From: Microbacterium sp. SORGH_AS_0969
GTDB taxonomy: Bacteria > Actinomycetota > Actinomycetes > Actinomycetales > Microbacteriaceae
Reading direction: 5' to 3'
DNA length: 64,000 nt
NCBI RefSeq assembly: GCF_030818255.1
Contig: NZ_JAUTAG010000001.1
Span: forward strand, 1,178,001-1,242,000
Shown: positions 4,398 to 16,010 of the stretch, piece after piece
How positions within the stretch are numbered: the first letter of the stretch is position 1
How the letters are laid out: each line of letters starts with the position of its first letter
Made by a program: the position numbers and the translations under genes
The notes under the pieces: model-generated
The model's input: only the letters and a program-made list of their open reading frames with translations
Told to the model about the DNA's origin: nothing
Databases searched by the model: none

Positions 4398-4582
4398 GAT
4401 GTGCTCCGACCCTTGAAGGCGTTGACGATGTTGCCGAAATCGATCTCGCCGGCGGTGATGCGCGCGACGACGATTCCGATGGCCATGAACAGGGCGACGA
4501 GGATGAATCCCCAGAAGCCGAAGATCAGGGCGCTGAGAGCGAGGACGAGCCCGACGAGCGCGCCCTTCGTGGTGGGGCTCAC
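4394..4582 (-). CDS. Small DUF2273-like membrane protein
   Basis: 62 residues, almost entirely two hydrophobic spans (residues 8-22 and 26-42: GLVLALSALIFGFWG and ILVALFMAIGIVVARI) with a short polar tail that includes DFGNIVNAFKGR. Small two-span proteins of this kind (DUF2273) regularly sit next to Asp23 genes. It overlaps the genes on both sides by 4 bases. It probably anchors or assembles Asp23 at the membrane. Confidence 0.75.
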   Translation of the reverse strand: MSPTTKGALVGLVLALSALIFGFWGFILVALFMAIGIVVARITAGEIDFGNIVNAFKGRSTS

Positions 4583-5239: not shown

Positions 5240-5454
5240 CGCACCGTGCTTCAGCCCGGTTGCATGACCCGTATGCGACGCCCTCTCTCGCCTGCCCGAG
5301 CCGTTCACACGCGCCCCGCCGATCATGCAGATGGACCGCATCGCCACTCCCGCACCGCGCTTCAGCCCGGTTGCATGACCCGTATGCGACGCCCTCTCTC
5401 GCCTGCCCGAGCCGTTCACACGCGCCCCGCCGATCATGCAGATGGACCGCATCG
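5240..5454. repeat. Tandem duplication of a 104-bp non-coding unit
   Basis: Bases 5240-5343 recur at 5351-5454 with one mismatch (5247 T versus 5358 C), an offset of 111 bp. The copies lie in the intergenic space between the Asp23 operon and fdhD and include the partly symmetric element TTGCATGACCCGTATGCGA. No supported gene covers them. They look like a recent duplication of a regulatory segment. Confidence 0.9.
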
Positions 5455-5489
5455 ACGCTCCGGCGACCCGTGCGATGAGACCCCGGGCG

Positions 5490-6483: not shown

Positions 6484-8808
6484 ATGGGTGAATCGTTCGG
6501 CCTGATGACCGAGAAGCCCCGCCAGGGCGGCCTCGGACCGGCCGTGACGGGCGACTGGTCGAGCACCGGCGAGTACGAGCACCCCGCCGCCGGGTGGGGC
6601 GCCGCGCTCACCGTCGGCAAGGTGCTGCTCGAACAACGCCAGCCGATCGCGGGCACCAGGGCGATGTTCACGATGAACCACCCGAAGAGCGGTTTCGACT
6701 GCCCCGGGTGCGCGTGGCCCGACGACAAGGGTGTCGCGCTCGACATCTGCGAGAACGGCATCAAGCACGTCACCTGGGAGATGACGCACAAGCGCGTCGG
6801 CAAGGAGTTCTTCGCCGAGCACTCGGTGACAGAGCTGTCGCAGTGGACCGATTTCGCTCTCGAAGACGCCGGTCGCCTCGTCGGTCCGATGGTCTACGAC
6901 GCCGCCAGCGACCACTACGTGCCGATCTCGTGGAACGACGCCTTCCGCCTCATCGCCGAGCAGATCACCGCTCTCGACTCCCCCGACCAGGCGGCGTTCT
7001 ACACCTCGGGGCGACTCAGCAACGAAGCGTCGTTCCTCTACCAGCTGTTCGCGCGCGAGCTCGGCACGAACAACCTCCCCGACTGCTCGAACATGTGCCA
7101 CGAGGGCTCGGGGCGCGGGCTCACGGCATCCCTCGCCACCCCCAAGGGCACCGCCGACCTCGAAGACTGGGAGACCTGCGACGCCCTCTTCGTGCTCGGT
7201 GTGAACGCGGCTTCCAACGCTCCGCGCATGCTCACGAGCCTTGCCGAGGCGATCGACCGCGGCGCACAGGTGGTGCACGTCAACACGCTGCGCGAGGTCG
7301 CCGGCACGCGCACGATCGTGCCGCACGAGATCGTCGACATGGCGACGTTCCACAGCACGCCGACCAGCACGATGAACCTGCAGGTTCGCCCGGGCGGCGA
7401 CCTCGCTCTCGTGCGCGGCATGGCGAAGGTCGTGTTCGAGGCGTCCGAGACCGACCCGAGCGCCCTCGACCAGGCCTTCCTCGATCAGTACACGACCGGG
7501 CTCGATGAGTACCGCGCTCTGGTCGAAGCGACCCCGTGGGACCAGCTCGTCGAACAGGCGGGGCTCACCGAAGCCGAGATCCGCGGGGCGGCCGACGTCT
7601 ATCTCAGCGCCGACCGGACGGTCATCAGCTGGTGTCTGGGTGTGAGCCAGCACCAGCACGGCGTCGACACCGTGCGCGAGATCGTCAACCTGCTCCTGCT
7701 GCGCGGCAACGTGGGACGAAAGGGCACCGGACCCTCGCCGGTGCGCGGCCACAGCAACGTGCAGGGCAACCGCACGTGCGGCATCAACCACAAGCCCACC
7801 GAGCAGTGGCTCGCGAAGCTCGACGAGGTGTGCGGCATCACCTCGCCGCGAGAGCCCGGCCTCGACACCGTGCACACGGTGGCTGCGCTGCACCGGGGCG
7901 ATCTGAAGGTGTTCGTCGGCATGGGCGGCAACTTCGTCCGGGCTGCTCCCGACACGAAGCTCACCGCCGAGGGCATGGGCCGCTGCGAGCTGACCGTCCA
8001 CGTGAGCACCAAGCTCAACCGCAGCCACCTCACCCACGGCAAGCAGGCCCTCATCCTCCCGTGCCTCGGCCGCACCGAGCGTGACGTGCAAGAGGCAGGC
8101 CCCCAGTCGATCTCGACCGAGGATGCCATGAGCTCCGTCATGCTCTCGCTCGGCTCCCGCAAGCCCGCGTCTCCGCACCTGCTGAGCGAGCCCGAGATCA
8201 TCGCGCGCATCGCTCGCGCCACCATGCCCCACTCGGCGACGCCGTGGGAGTGGTACGTGGGCGACTACGACCGTATCCGCGACACCATGGCGAAGGTGCT
8301 GCCCGGGTTCGAGGGCTTCAACGAGCTCGTGCGCCAGCAGTACGGCTTCCGCATCCCGCAGCCGGCCCGCGAGCGCGACTTCCGGACGCCGTCGGGCAAG
8401 GCGGAGTTCTCGGATGCCGAGCTGCCGAACGTCATCCCCGAAGAGGCCGACGTGCTGGTGCTGCAGACCATGCGCTCCCACGACCAGTGGAACACCACGA
8501 TCTACTCGGCCGACGACCGGTACCGGGGCGTCCGCAACATCCGCGAGCTGGTGTTCATGCACCGCCGAGACATGAAGGACCGCGGCATCGCCGAGGGCGA
8601 CCTCGTCGACATCGTCGCGACCTCGCGCGACGGCTCGGTGCGCAGCGTCACGGGCTTCCGCGCGCTCGAGTACGACACCCCGCGCGGCAGCGCCGCCGGG
8701 TACTTCCCCGAGCTCAACGTGCTGCTCGGCCCCGACGACTACAGCCGCCAGAGCGACCAGCCGCTGATGAAAGACATCCGGGTCCGCATCGCGAAGACCG
8801 CGAGTTGA
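6484..8808 (+). CDS. FdhF/YdeP family molybdopterin oxidoreductase
   Basis: 774-residue bis-MGD molybdenum enzyme of the YdeP/FdhF (TIGR01701-like) family, related to the formate dehydrogenase H catalytic subunit. The N-terminus carries FDCPGCAWPD, where this family has few Cys ligands rather than a full 4Fe-4S site, then CSNMCHEGSGRGL near the cofactor site, GPSPVRGHSNVQGNRTCG, and a C-terminal molybdopterin dinucleotide-binding domain (QTMRSHDQWNTTIY). The ATG at 6484 is preceded by ggagggtg; a frame start 39 bases upstream lacks a site. FdhD encoded just upstream should sulfurate it. No electron-transfer subunit is present, so the reaction (formate oxidation or another) is not certain. Confidence 0.9.
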   Translation: MGESFGLMTEKPRQGGLGPAVTGDWSSTGEYEHPAAGWGAALTVGKVLLEQRQPIAGTRAMFTMNHPKSGFDCPGCAWPDDKGVALDICENGIKHVTWEMTHKRVGKEFFAEHSVTELSQWTDFALEDAGRLVGPMVYDAASDHYVPISWNDAFRLIAEQITALDSPDQAAFYTSGRLSNEASFLYQLFARELGTNNLPDCSNMCHEGSGRGLTASLATPKGTADLEDWETCDALFVLGVNAASNAPRMLTSLAEAIDRGAQVVHVNTLREVAGTRTIVPHEIVDMATFHSTPTSTMNLQVRPGGDLALVRGMAKVVFEASETDPSALDQAFLDQYTTGLDEYRALVEATPWDQLVEQAGLTEAEIRGAADVYLSADRTVISWCLGVSQHQHGVDTVREIVNLLLLRGNVGRKGTGPSPVRGHSNVQGNRTCGINHKPTEQWLAKLDEVCGITSPREPGLDTVHTVAALHRGDLKVFVGMGGNFVRAAPDTKLTAEGMGRCELTVHVSTKLNRSHLTHGKQALILPCLGRTERDVQEAGPQSISTEDAMSSVMLSLGSRKPASPHLLSEPEIIARIARATMPHSATPWEWYVGDYDRIRDTMAKVLPGFEGFNELVRQQYGFRIPQPARERDFRTPSGKAEFSDAELPNVIPEEADVLVLQTMRSHDQWNTTIYSADDRYRGVRNIRELVFMHRRDMKDRGIAEGDLVDIVATSRDGSVRSVTGFRALEYDTPRGSAAGYFPELNVLLGPDDYSRQSDQPLMKDIRVRIAKTAS

Positions 8809-9007
8809 GGGTCTGAGCTCATCCGGCCGTCATCCCCGCTGTCGACAACAGCAAGGGGCGGACGGAGACATCGTCGATGCGGGCCGCGTCAACACCCCGC
8901 AGTCTCACCCCGCAGTTCAAGGCGAGAGGGTGAAGGTCGTGGCATCACAGGGTGGACCACAGCCAGCAACGACTACACGAACGTTCTCCATCGCCAGAAT
9001 GGCGACC

Positions 9008-9466
9008 ATGATCGAACCGACGGGCACCCCATCCGGCCTGCTGACAACCCCGATCGGCATCGCGCGAGACATTCTCCGGCACTGGCTCGACGGCAAGGAA
9101 CGCAAACTCCGCATCCGCAAGCTGGAACTCGAGATCGAGCGCCTCACTGCTTCACATGGGTCGCCGGATCCGAACGCGGTGATCGACGCGGTCACCCGAT
9201 TGGTGGAAGGCATAGCGGGTCTGAGGATCTCCCCGTCCCTTCAAGGCCCCATCATCATCCGAGACGGCACGCCGATTGAAATTCCCGACATGCCTCCGAT
9301 CGCACCGCCTCCCGGACCCGCCCTGTCCGCGACCGGGTCGCCCGCGAACGGTGGCCACGACGAAGTGACGTGGATGGCACGCGCCATTTCTTCATCACCT
9401 TCGAAGAACTCTCTCGAGTTGCTGGCGGAACGCGTACGGAAGCGCCGAGAGGCGGATGCGCGATGA
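9008..9466 (+). CDS. Unrecognised protein of the activase-like cassette
   Basis: 152 residues from this ATG; family not recognised. An N-terminal amphipathic segment (IGIARDILRHWLDGKERKLRIRKLE, in part) leads into a charged helix likely to form a coiled coil (residues 20-45), then a Pro-rich linker (IPDMPPIAPPPGP) and a C-terminal helix ending ELLAERVRKRREADAR. There is no signal peptide or membrane span. The start is uncertain: GTG 8930 and ATG 8999 are in frame, but a CAGAAT box 7 bases before 9008 suits a leaderless start. It overlaps the AAA+ gene by 4 bases (ATGA), so the two products are made together and may interact. Confidence 0.6.
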   Translation: MIEPTGTPSGLLTTPIGIARDILRHWLDGKERKLRIRKLELEIERLTASHGSPDPNAVIDAVTRLVEGIAGLRISPSLQGPIIIRDGTPIEIPDMPPIAPPPGPALSATGSPANGGHDEVTWMARAISSSPSKNSLELLAERVRKRREADAR

Positions 9467-10281
9467 CGTCCCCGGTGCCACACCGCCTGCGTGAGCGGAT
9501 CGAGCTGCATCTTTTCCGCAACCTCGCCGCCGCCGCGCTGCGACACATCCCACTCATCCTCTGCATCGAGGGCGAGCCGGGAAGCGGCAAGACCTTCGCG
9601 GTCGACGCGGTCGCCGGCGACTCTGGGGTGAAAGTCTTCTCGATCGCGGGGGACCAACTTGAGAGCCCGAATGCCGGGTACCCCGCTCAACTCATTCGGG
9701 ACACGTACCGAGAGGCGGGCGAAGCGCTCAGGGGCGGAGCACTCGGTGCCGCCCTGGTCATCCACGACATCGACACCGCGCTCGGGAGCTGGGGCGCCAA
9801 CGTCCAGTACACGATGAACCGACAGATGGTCAACAACGCCCTCATGAACCTGTCGGACTCTCCGACCATCGTGGAGGGTTTTGACACCCGCCGGGTCCCC
9901 ATCATCCTCACCGGCAACGACTTCTCGCTTCTCCACGCGCCCGTCATGCGCACGGGTCGCTCCGACCTCTTCCGCTGGGAACCGACTGTCGCGGAGAGAA
10001 CGTTCGTCGTGGCGGACATCCTCCCGGCAGGGCTCGAAGGCCTCGCCGAGGTGCTCGTCACGAACCACCCCACGCAGCCCGTTTCCTTCTTCGCGGATGC
10101 CGTCGCCTTCGCGCAGAACACGTCGTTGTCGGATGCGATAGCAAAGCGCTCCCTCACGGAACTCCTCGCGCTCATCCGAGATGGACACGATCCGATCGTT
10201 CCACCGCCGACGGTCGAATCGATTCTTCGCAGCGCCGAGGTGCTCGCTTCGAGTCGACGAGACAGCAAGGAGGCCCTGTGA
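9463..10281 (+). CDS. Rubisco-activase-like AAA+ ATPase
   Basis: 272 residues. The AAA+ core is complete: Walker A GEPGSGKT (37-44), Walker B ALVIHDID (97-104), sensor 1 ILTGND (148-153), and arginines at MRTGR (163-166). Beyond the core, the protein follows plant and cyanobacterial Rubisco activase (RCA) closely as I recall it: LESPNAGYPAQLIRDTYREA (66-85; RCA has ESGNAGEPAKLIRQRYREA), QYTMNRQMVNNALMN (RCA QYTVNNQMVNATLMN) and RVPIILTGNDFSLLHAP (RCA RVPIICTGNDFSTLYAP). RCA-type ATPases thread and remodel an inhibited partner. No Rubisco or Calvin-cycle gene is in the window, so the client is unknown. ATG 9463 overlaps the upstream stop. The protein lacks the RCA N-domain and ends soon after the AAA lid. 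Confidence 0.85.
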   Translation: MTSPVPHRLRERIELHLFRNLAAAALRHIPLILCIEGEPGSGKTFAVDAVAGDSGVKVFSIAGDQLESPNAGYPAQLIRDTYREAGEALRGGALGAALVIHDIDTALGSWGANVQYTMNRQMVNNALMNLSDSPTIVEGFDTRRVPIILTGNDFSLLHAPVMRTGRSDLFRWEPTVAERTFVVADILPAGLEGLAEVLVTNHPTQPVSFFADAVAFAQNTSLSDAIAKRSLTELLALIRDGHDPIVPPPTVESILRSAEVLASSRRDSKEAL

Positions 10282-10835
10282 TGACCGGCTCCCACTCGCG
10301 ATCCTCCTCGAACTCGTCATCCCACGCTCGACTGTCGCTCTTGGTGCACCAGGTTCGAGTCGCTTTGCGCCGAGCGATATCAGCGAGCCCACGATCACTC
10401 GACCACGCGACGAAACTGGTCACGCGTCGCTGGGTCTCGCACTTCCTCCTTCGCGGGATGGATGCGGAGTCCAAGTGCTGGATCCAAGTGACGCTGCGTA
10501 TCGATTGGGCAGCTCACGCGTTGGCGATCGAACGCGGAGCCACGACTGTGACCATAGGTTCGTCGTGGATCGATTCCACGGCACCGGAGGTCACCGAAGC
10601 CATCGATCTCTTCTGCTCTGAGGTCTCCGAGCACGGGTTGACCCCGCTTCTCGCCTGGCAATGGAGCGACAATGTCGATGTGAAAGCTGCTCGTGCGGAA
10701 TTGGGTTCGTCCCCCACTCCGCCGATCGAGTGGGCGGGCGAGGTGATCTCTCTCACCCAAACCGTGCGCGAGATCCCCGAGTTCCAGGTCCGCATCGAAC
10801 AGGTCGCCAGTTCGGATGACGAGGAAGACGACTGA
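10281..10835 (+). CDS. Unrecognised acidic-tailed protein of the activase-like cassette
   Basis: 184 residues; no family recognised. A basic Ser-rich N-terminus (about 1-50) is followed by an alpha/beta segment (WIQVTLRIDWAAHALAIERG, then VTIGSSWIDSTAPEVTEAIDLF) and an acidic end, VASSDDEEDD. The ATG at 10281 shares its first base with the stop of the ATPase gene and has an aaggagg site 7 bases upstream; an in-frame GTG one codon earlier is possible. Tight coupling suggests it is a partner or client of the ATPase. An acidic C-terminal tail would be a plausible handle for an AAA+ pore, but that is inference. Confidence 0.7.
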   Translation: MTGSHSRSSSNSSSHARLSLLVHQVRVALRRAISASPRSLDHATKLVTRRWVSHFLLRGMDAESKCWIQVTLRIDWAAHALAIERGATTVTIGSSWIDSTAPEVTEAIDLFCSEVSEHGLTPLLAWQWSDNVDVKAARAELGSSPTPPIEWAGEVISLTQTVREIPEFQVRIEQVASSDDEEDD

Positions 10836-10900
10836 AGCTCCTCGTTCGCCCACCCAGTGAGCGGCACAGTCAATCCTTCGGCGATCGCGCTGCTCGGGTA

Positions 10901-11155
10901 TCAGAACGACGACAACGCGCGGGTCATGAACGATGCCCAGATGACGATGAACACGACATTTGCCGCTGTTCCGAGCGCCCCGATGATCATGGCCCACCGC
11001 GCGAACCCGACGCCCGCTTCGACGTTGTCCGGCCGCGCGAGCTGATTCCGCGCGACGATGCCGATCACGAGACCGGCGATCGGCACGATGAACGCCGCGA
11101 TGAAGCCGATCACCGCGAGAGTGCTCGTCCGCACCGGCGCCACGGGAGAGGTCAT
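10901..11155 (-). CDS. Small DUF4190-type membrane protein
   Basis: 84 residues with two membrane spans (about 10-33 and 52-76) joined by a short loop NQLARPDNVEAGVGFARW. The pattern, with an Ala/Gly-rich first helix ending VARNQLAR and a Gly just before the second, is typical of actinobacterial DUF4190 proteins. The function of the family is unknown. It is transcribed towards the activase-like cassette and ends 65 bp from it. Confidence 0.75.
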   Translation of the reverse strand: MTSPVAPVRTSTLAVIGFIAAFIVPIAGLVIGIVARNQLARPDNVEAGVGFARWAMIIGALGTAANVVFIVIWASFMTRALSSF

Positions 11156-12888: not shown

Positions 12889-13071
12889 GCGCGGGCACCG
12901 ACGGCGGCCCGCGCCGGCAGCCGCACCCGGGCCCACAGAACGGATGCCACACCCCACTGCTCCTCCCCAGCGGGGCCGAGGCCGCGACCTGTCCACGTCG
13001 GCGGCTCAGGATCGGCGGCCCCAACTAGACTGATGCCCGTCCGGCCCCTGCGATTCTTGGAGCTCAGCCGC

Positions 13072-15813: not shown

Positions 15814-15844
15814 GACCACGGATCGATGGGGTCCGCGTCTCCTG

Positions 15845-16010
15845 GCCCCGGCCCCGGCCCCGGCCCCGGCCCCGGTCCTGCCCCAGCCCCAGCCCCAGCC
15901 CCAGCCCCAGCCCCAGCCCCGGCCCCCACCCCGGCCACGGTCCCAGCCCCTGCCCCCGCCCCGGTCCTGCCCCCGCCCCGGCCCCTGCCCCTGCCCCAGC
16001 CCCAGCCCCT
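15845..16010. repeat. GGCCCC/AGCCCC hexanucleotide array
   Basis: About 165 bp of near-perfect hexamers: a run of GGCCCC units, then AGCCCC units, then mixed CCCCGG/CCCCTG/CCCCAG. The minus strand is thus a dense series of G4 runs (GGGGCC, GGGGCT) able to form G-quadruplexes. It ends 45 bp before the promoter of the 16068 gene. All frames through it give Pro/Ala/Gly repeats, but none has a credible start, so I treat it as non-coding. Confidence 0.9.

Follow-up and report, generated by a model that had tools for sequence, protein, structure and literature searches.

An AAA+ ATPase of the Rubisco activase (Rca) type is encoded directly upstream of a protein with a predicted HORMA fold, within a compact accessory cassette of three genes. 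The pairing recurs in five phyla, sometimes beside genes of immune type, which points to a motor that serves to reset a switch of immune type.

The cassette was found in a stretch of 64,000 nucleotides, referred to here as the window, that corresponds to positions 1178001-1242000 of a host genome assembled as one contig of 3.94 Mb and 98% complete. Its three ORFs run in the same direction and, as an earlier sequence-only reading had reported and the ORF coordinates confirm, overlap by 4 bases (gene 1 and the ATPase gene) and by 1 base (the ATPase gene and gene 3). The features are as follows.

8802..10924, no strand: accessory stretch containing the cassette (no blastn match in six same-genus genomes; lower G+C from 9001 on)
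9008..9466, + strand: gene 1 (152 aa), an ORF whose product is a probable output, anchor or client
9463..10281, + strand: Rubisco-activase-type AAA+ ATPase (272 aa), from phmmer against the PDB, Pfam AAA and the tree
9568..9591, + strand: Walker A, GEPGSGKT, residues 36-43 of the ATPase, with G37, P39, G40, G42 and K43 invariant in 8 sequences
10281..10835, + strand: gene 3, predicted HORMA-fold protein (184 aa), from an AlphaFold2 model and its VIA-align and Foldseek matches
10281..10328, + strand: N-terminal tail of the HORMA protein, Ser/Thr-rich and acid-poor, the proposed handle for the motor (tail composition, low pLDDT)

The activase-type ATPase and the absence of Rubisco

The likeness of the ATPase to Rca is, at the level of sequence, far beyond chance. 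The matches that head a phmmer search of the PDB are all Rcas (6z1d, 1.9e-42; 3t15, 1.3e-40; 4w5w, 8.2e-39), and the next family, VCP-like, follows at 3.8e-11 among the best 60 of 188 matches. No TRIP13 or Pch2 name occurs among those 60, in which Rca is far ahead, and PADLOC gave no match. The protein is colinear with the Nostoc and plant Rcas over approximately residues 8-233, a span that includes LESPNAGYPAQLIRDTYREA, QYTMNRQMVNNALMN and RVPIILTGNDFSLLHAP, the blocks that had originally been singled out as Rca-matching. K43, D102, N152, R163 and R166 are invariant in 8 sequences, and represent an intact Walker A (K43), the Walker B aspartate (D102), the sensor 1 asparagine (N152) and an arginine pair (R163/R166). 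General AAA is the only Pfam family over its cut-off, and neither NCBIfam nor PADLOC supplies a family name. PF21228, a module of canonical Rca that was found on canonical relatives such as P0030 and P0061, has no match in the window ATPase at E up to 1.

When CbbX and FtsH serve as outgroups in a tree of 60 rows, the Rca-like proteins cluster with canonical Rca (98/99), separately from both outgroups, and a CbbX or FtsH placement is ruled out. Canonical Rcas make up one clade (95/92), and the window ATPase joins P0002 (100/100) before falling within a set of 16 Rca-like rows (98/95). Six long-branch Rca-like rows (L066, L067, L072, L073, L074 and P0003) and 10 near-duplicate cyanobacterial rows were dropped from this tree, and TRIP13 is not among its rows; a first ATPase tree, with no CbbX row, already omitted 12 rows of FtsH-like type and 3 partial rows of Rca type (L071, L077 and P0074). 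Because the root of the 60-row tree lies on a very long branch and several of its deep forks are unsupported (7/0, 11/63, 26/57), with the program warning that long branches meet, canonical Rca cannot be placed firmly inside the Rca-like stock. The PDB matches and the tree nevertheless bear out the initial recognition of the protein, and the ATPase is almost certainly of Rca type.

The distribution of this ATPase is patchy. Of the 398 family genomes searched, 41 have a match with E no higher than 1e-8, and only the window's own, G352 (39%) and G367 (37%) do so below 1e-36; the remaining 38 have a best E of 2e-10 to 1e-8 across the AAA core, and we read these as FtsH-like. One further relative, G681 (38%), appeared among 396 genomes of the order, and none beyond the window's own among 396 of the phylum. 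A scan of species genomes with one degenerate peptide pattern, the results of which are therefore a sample, yielded 52 loci, comprising 20 canonical cyanobacterial ones and 32 non-canonical, a division based on the first ATPase tree for 19 of the canonical loci and on the organism for L071, a partial match. The non-canonical loci belong to Actinomycetota, Cyanobacteriota, Chloroflexota, Armatimonadota, Bacillota and Campylobacterota. Phage and plasmid records gave no ATPase match, and a scan of viral contigs gave one locus, L077 (IMG/VR). At L077:7446-9483, a gene 1-like ORF, the motor and the HORMA gene stand in a row, and the flanking genes look terminase-like by eye.

The cassette had been described as one without Rubisco, and this proved correct: PF00016 finds no rbcL in the host genome (control positive in 5/14 genomes). 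An Rca-like relative occurs in 36 genomes (35 when G367 and L065 are counted as one), of which six have rbcL, namely L025 (Planktothricoides), L044 (Fischerella), L031, L061, L066 (Actinomadura) and L040 (Nocardia). All six belong to the 25 distinct carriers of motor and HORMA gene, 19 of which have no PF00016 match, several carrier genomes being metagenome assemblies that may be incomplete. For the four rbcL-bearing carriers that are actinobacteria, the rbcL match has a CbbX-type match 0.6-0.7 kb away (three over the family cut-off, the fourth just under), so that their Rubisco has a likely activase of its own.

An ATPase that serves Rubisco or a Rubisco-like protein as its activase would be in keeping with Rcas as its closest solved relatives, but PF00016 is absent from the host and from most carriers, a CbbX-type gene sits beside rbcL in the four actinobacteria, the PF21228 match borne by canonical Rcas is missing from the window protein, and none of the 20 canonical loci has the HORMA gene. 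We regard this explanation as very improbable, and on the first three of these grounds a working Rubisco activase was rejected as a candidate. The motor-HORMA pair and Rubisco occur together in the cyanobacteria L025 and L044. Rca-like ATPases with no nearby HORMA gene are found in rbcL-less genomes of Campylobacterota (L041, L047, L048) and Anaerolineae (L028, L029, L035, L039), and are another unexplained use of the Rca family.

The predicted HORMA fold and its linkage to the motor

Both genes flanking the ATPase had been called unrecognised. That description still fits gene 1, which has no family match, and no longer fits gene 3, the product of which is predicted to adopt a HORMA fold. The AlphaFold2 model of gene 3 has a pLDDT of 91.3 and a pTM of 0.85, and HORMA proteins occupy every listed row of two structure comparisons, made with VIA-align and Foldseek, the TM-scores in one of the two being modest (0.38-0.50). 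The matches include 6f0x, a structure of TRIP13 with p31comet and C-Mad2. On the strength of the model, the HORMA assignment is very probably correct.

Sequence comparisons are silent on this assignment. Gene 3 has no match in Pfam, NCBIfam or PADLOC at E up to 1 and only chance-level rows in PHROGs, and no HORMA profile matches it when 16 members are scanned against Pfam (E up to 10) and PADLOC (HORMA and defence models). Searches of solved structures with gene 3 or with the gene 3 of L060 returned nothing or chance-level rows, and a profile search with the gene 3 alignment was empty. The bacterial HORMA model PF18173 had no matches in 246 genomes, an uninformative result since the controls also gave none. 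When protein collections were searched with the gene 3 alignment, 225 relatives came up; of the 120 listed, not one carries a Pfam domain.

The two ends of the protein differ in how widely their composition is shared. N-terminal tails of 15 sequences from several phyla are 45% serine plus threonine, with 1 acidic residue of 201, and the model has low pLDDT in its first 10 residues. The acidic C-terminal tail noted in the sequence-only reading is real (DDEEDD), though not general, as a comparable acidic end is present only in L040 and L067 among 15 other aligned relatives.

Neighbours that varied freely between genomes would speak against a dedicated system, and gene 3 does not vary in this way. 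A gene 3 profile built from 14 seeds and iterated over the 6366 open frames of the fetched loci (E below 1e-3) matches at 26 places: the window, L022, L023, L077 and 22 of the 32 non-canonical loci. The HORMA gene lies directly downstream of the ATPase gene on the same strand, behind 22/32 non-canonical motors as against 0/20 canonical cyanobacterial ones (Fisher 2.6e-7), and the pair is found in Actinomycetota, Cyanobacteriota, Chloroflexota, Armatimonadota and Bacillota. Ten non-canonical loci have no HORMA gene at E below 1e-3 (L028, L029, L035, L039, L041, L047, L048, L068, L073 and L072, the last with a borderline match at 0.006). Furthermore, ATPase and HORMA distances correlate over 25 loci (r 0.946, with 0/5000 permutations as high), and the correlation is 0.72 over the 278 pairs with an ATPase distance over 0.5, although joint transfer alone could produce such a correlation. 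Chance adjacency of gene 3 is rejected by the locus counts together with the distance correlation. We consider it likely, with good confidence, that the HORMA protein is a client or adaptor of the Rca-like motor.

The variable third gene, its surroundings and the insertion site

Gene 1 has an amphipathic N-terminal region, a possible coiled coil, a proline-rich linker and a basic C-terminus, the coiled coil being plausible from the stretch KLRIRKLELEIERL. Pfam, NCBIfam and PADLOC have nothing that matches it at E up to 1, PHROGs gave chance-level rows only, and sequence searches of solved structures gave nothing or chance-level rows. In many loci the position of gene 1 is taken by a small protein, and some of these share a hydrophobic or amphipathic N-terminus, a helical middle and a basic end. 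Identity between gene 1 and 8 other proteins from the same position is 16-24%. The best 19-residue hydrophobicity mean of the window gene 1 is 1.09, low for a membrane helix, and the corresponding N-termini of L066, L069 and L072 reach 2.2-2.5 and are membrane-helix-like. A profile built on five relatives of gene 1 finds those five again, and L061, but misses the window gene 1.

As far as these sequences can tell, gene 1 has been replaced in relatives or is too divergent for homology to be demonstrated, and the cassette is therefore better described as a pair that is conserved, to which a third, variable gene is added, than as a strict trio. Apart from this change, the checks proposed in the original reading favoured it, and its proposal of a dedicated system for another client, possibly one of the neighbours, stands with respect to gene 3, which stays with the motor and is a plausible client. 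In the host genome, gene 1 probably serves as output or anchor.

Immune-type genes neighbor the pair in some relatives, a context that the sequence-only reading had not recognised. One protein family follows the pair in eight loci, seven of them distinct (L022, L023, L024=L065, L062, L063, L064 and L076), and the two members tested are both ThsB_TIR (1.9e-16 and 4.5e-17). Ten further neighbors were picked by eye; eight matched a family, several of them under the cut-off, and two of L067 matched none. The neighbors of L052 match TIR_2, Peptidase_C14 and, in a second protein, ThsB_TIR (under the cut-off), and those of other loci match TIR_2 (L062, just under the cut-off), Pkinase (L046), PIN (L044, just under the cut-off), DEAD helicase (L040) and, on the opposite strand, NB-ARC/NACHT (L025). 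At L052:2945-7008, from a member of the Clostridia, a gene 1-like ORF, the motor, the HORMA protein, two TIR-like proteins and a caspase-domain protein are encoded in one direction. Most loci with HORMA and motor have no immune-type gene next door, and within the window cassette Pfam and PADLOC find no known effector domain and no TIR match in any of the three genes. SMODS (PF18144), the only CD-NTase model run, had no match in 24/25 carrier genomes, the host's included (control positive in 3/14), the exception being G367, where the match is on another contig. CBASS membership was rejected on account of this missing SMODS-type nucleotidyltransferase.

The ThsB_TIR loci also bear on what the motor acts upon. 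HORMA proteins are both clients and adaptors of TRIP13, and the true substrate of the motor could be gene 1, or an effector, that the HORMA protein only presents; the occurrence of 6f0x among the structure matches fits such an adaptor, and the basic ends frequent in gene 1 and its positional counterparts would be a possible handle. Yet the ThsB_TIR loci show no gene 1-like ORF upstream and keep both motor and HORMA gene, which makes the HORMA protein the constant partner, and the common composition of the HORMA tail is unusual. We therefore favor the HORMA protein itself as the substrate, and judge the adaptor-only explanation to be quite improbable.

The cassette is an accessory element, absent from the corresponding site in six genomes of the same genus (L078 and L087-L091; blastn). 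Five of the six keep a formate dehydrogenase-like gene up to 8798-8801, which L087 lacks, and all six keep purL from 13012-13022, with differing sequence between the two genes. L078 has a small membrane gene 114 bases further on, as against approximately 2.1 kb in the window, and beyond it, in the same interval as the cassette (L078:2146-5421), lie Cas7-, Cas5-, Cas6e-, Cas1- and Cas2-type genes that we read as type I-E. The G+C content of the cassette is 61-65%, compared to 67-72% around it. Two repeats were observed elsewhere in the window: a 111-base unit in two copies, 97% alike, at 5240-5461, between an operon ending near 4579 and an fdhD-like gene, and the hexamer GGCCCC in approximately 28 copies (82% matches) at 15844-16009, downstream of purL, where there are open frames with Gly/Pro repeats.

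A motor-HORMA switch could also work outside immunity, for instance in stress signalling or protein assembly, just as HORMA switches in eukaryotes have roles in mitosis, meiosis and repair, and the many carrier loci with no adjoining immune-type gene would be expected from this explanation. It sits poorly, however, with a distribution as rare and patchy as that seen here (3/398 family genomes at E below 1e-36, 1/396 more in the order and 0/396 more in the phylum), with variable neighbors that include TIR and caspase proteins, with a variable site at which a relative has cas genes, and with a copy on a viral contig. We consider a non-immune process unlikely, and hold with fair assurance that the cassette has a role in conflict.

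A candidate switch and its known counterparts

HORMA proteins control the spindle checkpoint, meiosis and some of CBASS immunity. TRIP13/Pch2 is the only dedicated HORMA motor known to us, TRIP13 acting from the HORMA N-terminus, and the HORMA-TRIP13 module of type III CBASS was reportedly described by Ye et al. in 2020. The combination of an Rca-type motor with a HORMA protein that has a flexible, acid-poor tail fits a single act, namely threading from the N-terminus to open the fold.

In the proposed mechanism, the safety belt of the HORMA protein would close around a peptide from gene 1, from an effector or from an intruder, and thereby hold a response complex together. The Rca-like ATPase, presumably ring-shaped, would grip the HORMA protein by its N-terminal tail, which is flexible and rich in Ser/Thr, thread this tail and open the fold, whereupon the complex would be taken apart, a threshold set and the switch reset by the motor. 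TRIP13/Pch2 acts on HORMA proteins in this way. Gene 1 would provide the output or anchor in this host, a part that may fall in relatives to TIR, caspase, kinase or PIN-like proteins. With moderate confidence, we propose the cassette as an accessory immune-type switch, probably directed against phage, that works through a HORMA adaptor and an Rca-type motor in the manner described.

A more tentative proposal, and one that we put forward as possible rather than probable, is that Rca itself descends from a bacterial HORMA-remodelling motor of immune type, the HORMA-linked ATPases of five phyla being the older stock and the photosynthetic Rcas one derived clade in which the N-terminus of RbcL replaced the HORMA tail. 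If so, HORMA switches would have acquired an AAA+ motor on two or more occasions, TRIP13 in one case and the Rca type in another. The origin of Rca is at issue here, as a review has the Rca gene begin in cyanobacteria (PMC9951593), as against relatives in five phyla beside a different likely client.

Among the open-licence literature searched, none of the matches listed joins Rubisco activase with HORMA, TIR or phage defence. The chaperone-regulated NTP-dependent conflict systems of Kaur et al. (2020, PMC7159879) resemble the cassette in their AAA+ chaperone-like switches and variable effectors, and the words Rubisco, activase and RCA never occur in the text of that paper. The likeness to Thoeris lies in the ThsB_TIR proteins of some relatives; unlike Thoeris, the window cassette has no TIR gene, and motor and HORMA protein are not Thoeris components. 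Cyanobacterial and plant Rcas belong to the same AAA+ family, and the cyanobacterial enzyme, according to the review, draws the N-terminus of RbcL through its central pore (PMC9951593), so that an N-terminus is the point of attack there as well. In contrast to these Rcas, the cassette ATPase has neither PF21228 nor a small-subunit-like part, is partnered with a HORMA protein, and is mostly carried by Rubisco-free genomes.

The closest comparison is with type III CBASS, where HORMA binds the CD-NTase and TRIP13/Pch2 dismantles the complex (PMC10419184, PMC7159879). Common to both is the pairing of a bacterial HORMA protein and an AAA+ ATPase into a threshold switch (a proposed one in the cassette), in the case of CBASS within a system that bears effectors. 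The cassette differs in having an Rca-type motor instead of TRIP13, no CD-NTase, other neighbors, and a HORMA protein whose sequence escapes the Pfam and PADLOC models. A bacterial HORMA protein with an AAA+ ATPase is thus a known kind of arrangement, and it is the motor, the missing CD-NTase and the neighbors that are new as far as the literature searched shows. A second HORMA motor, of Rca type, would mean that the HORMA switch is modular, and that the cassette is a new immune-type system with testable parts.
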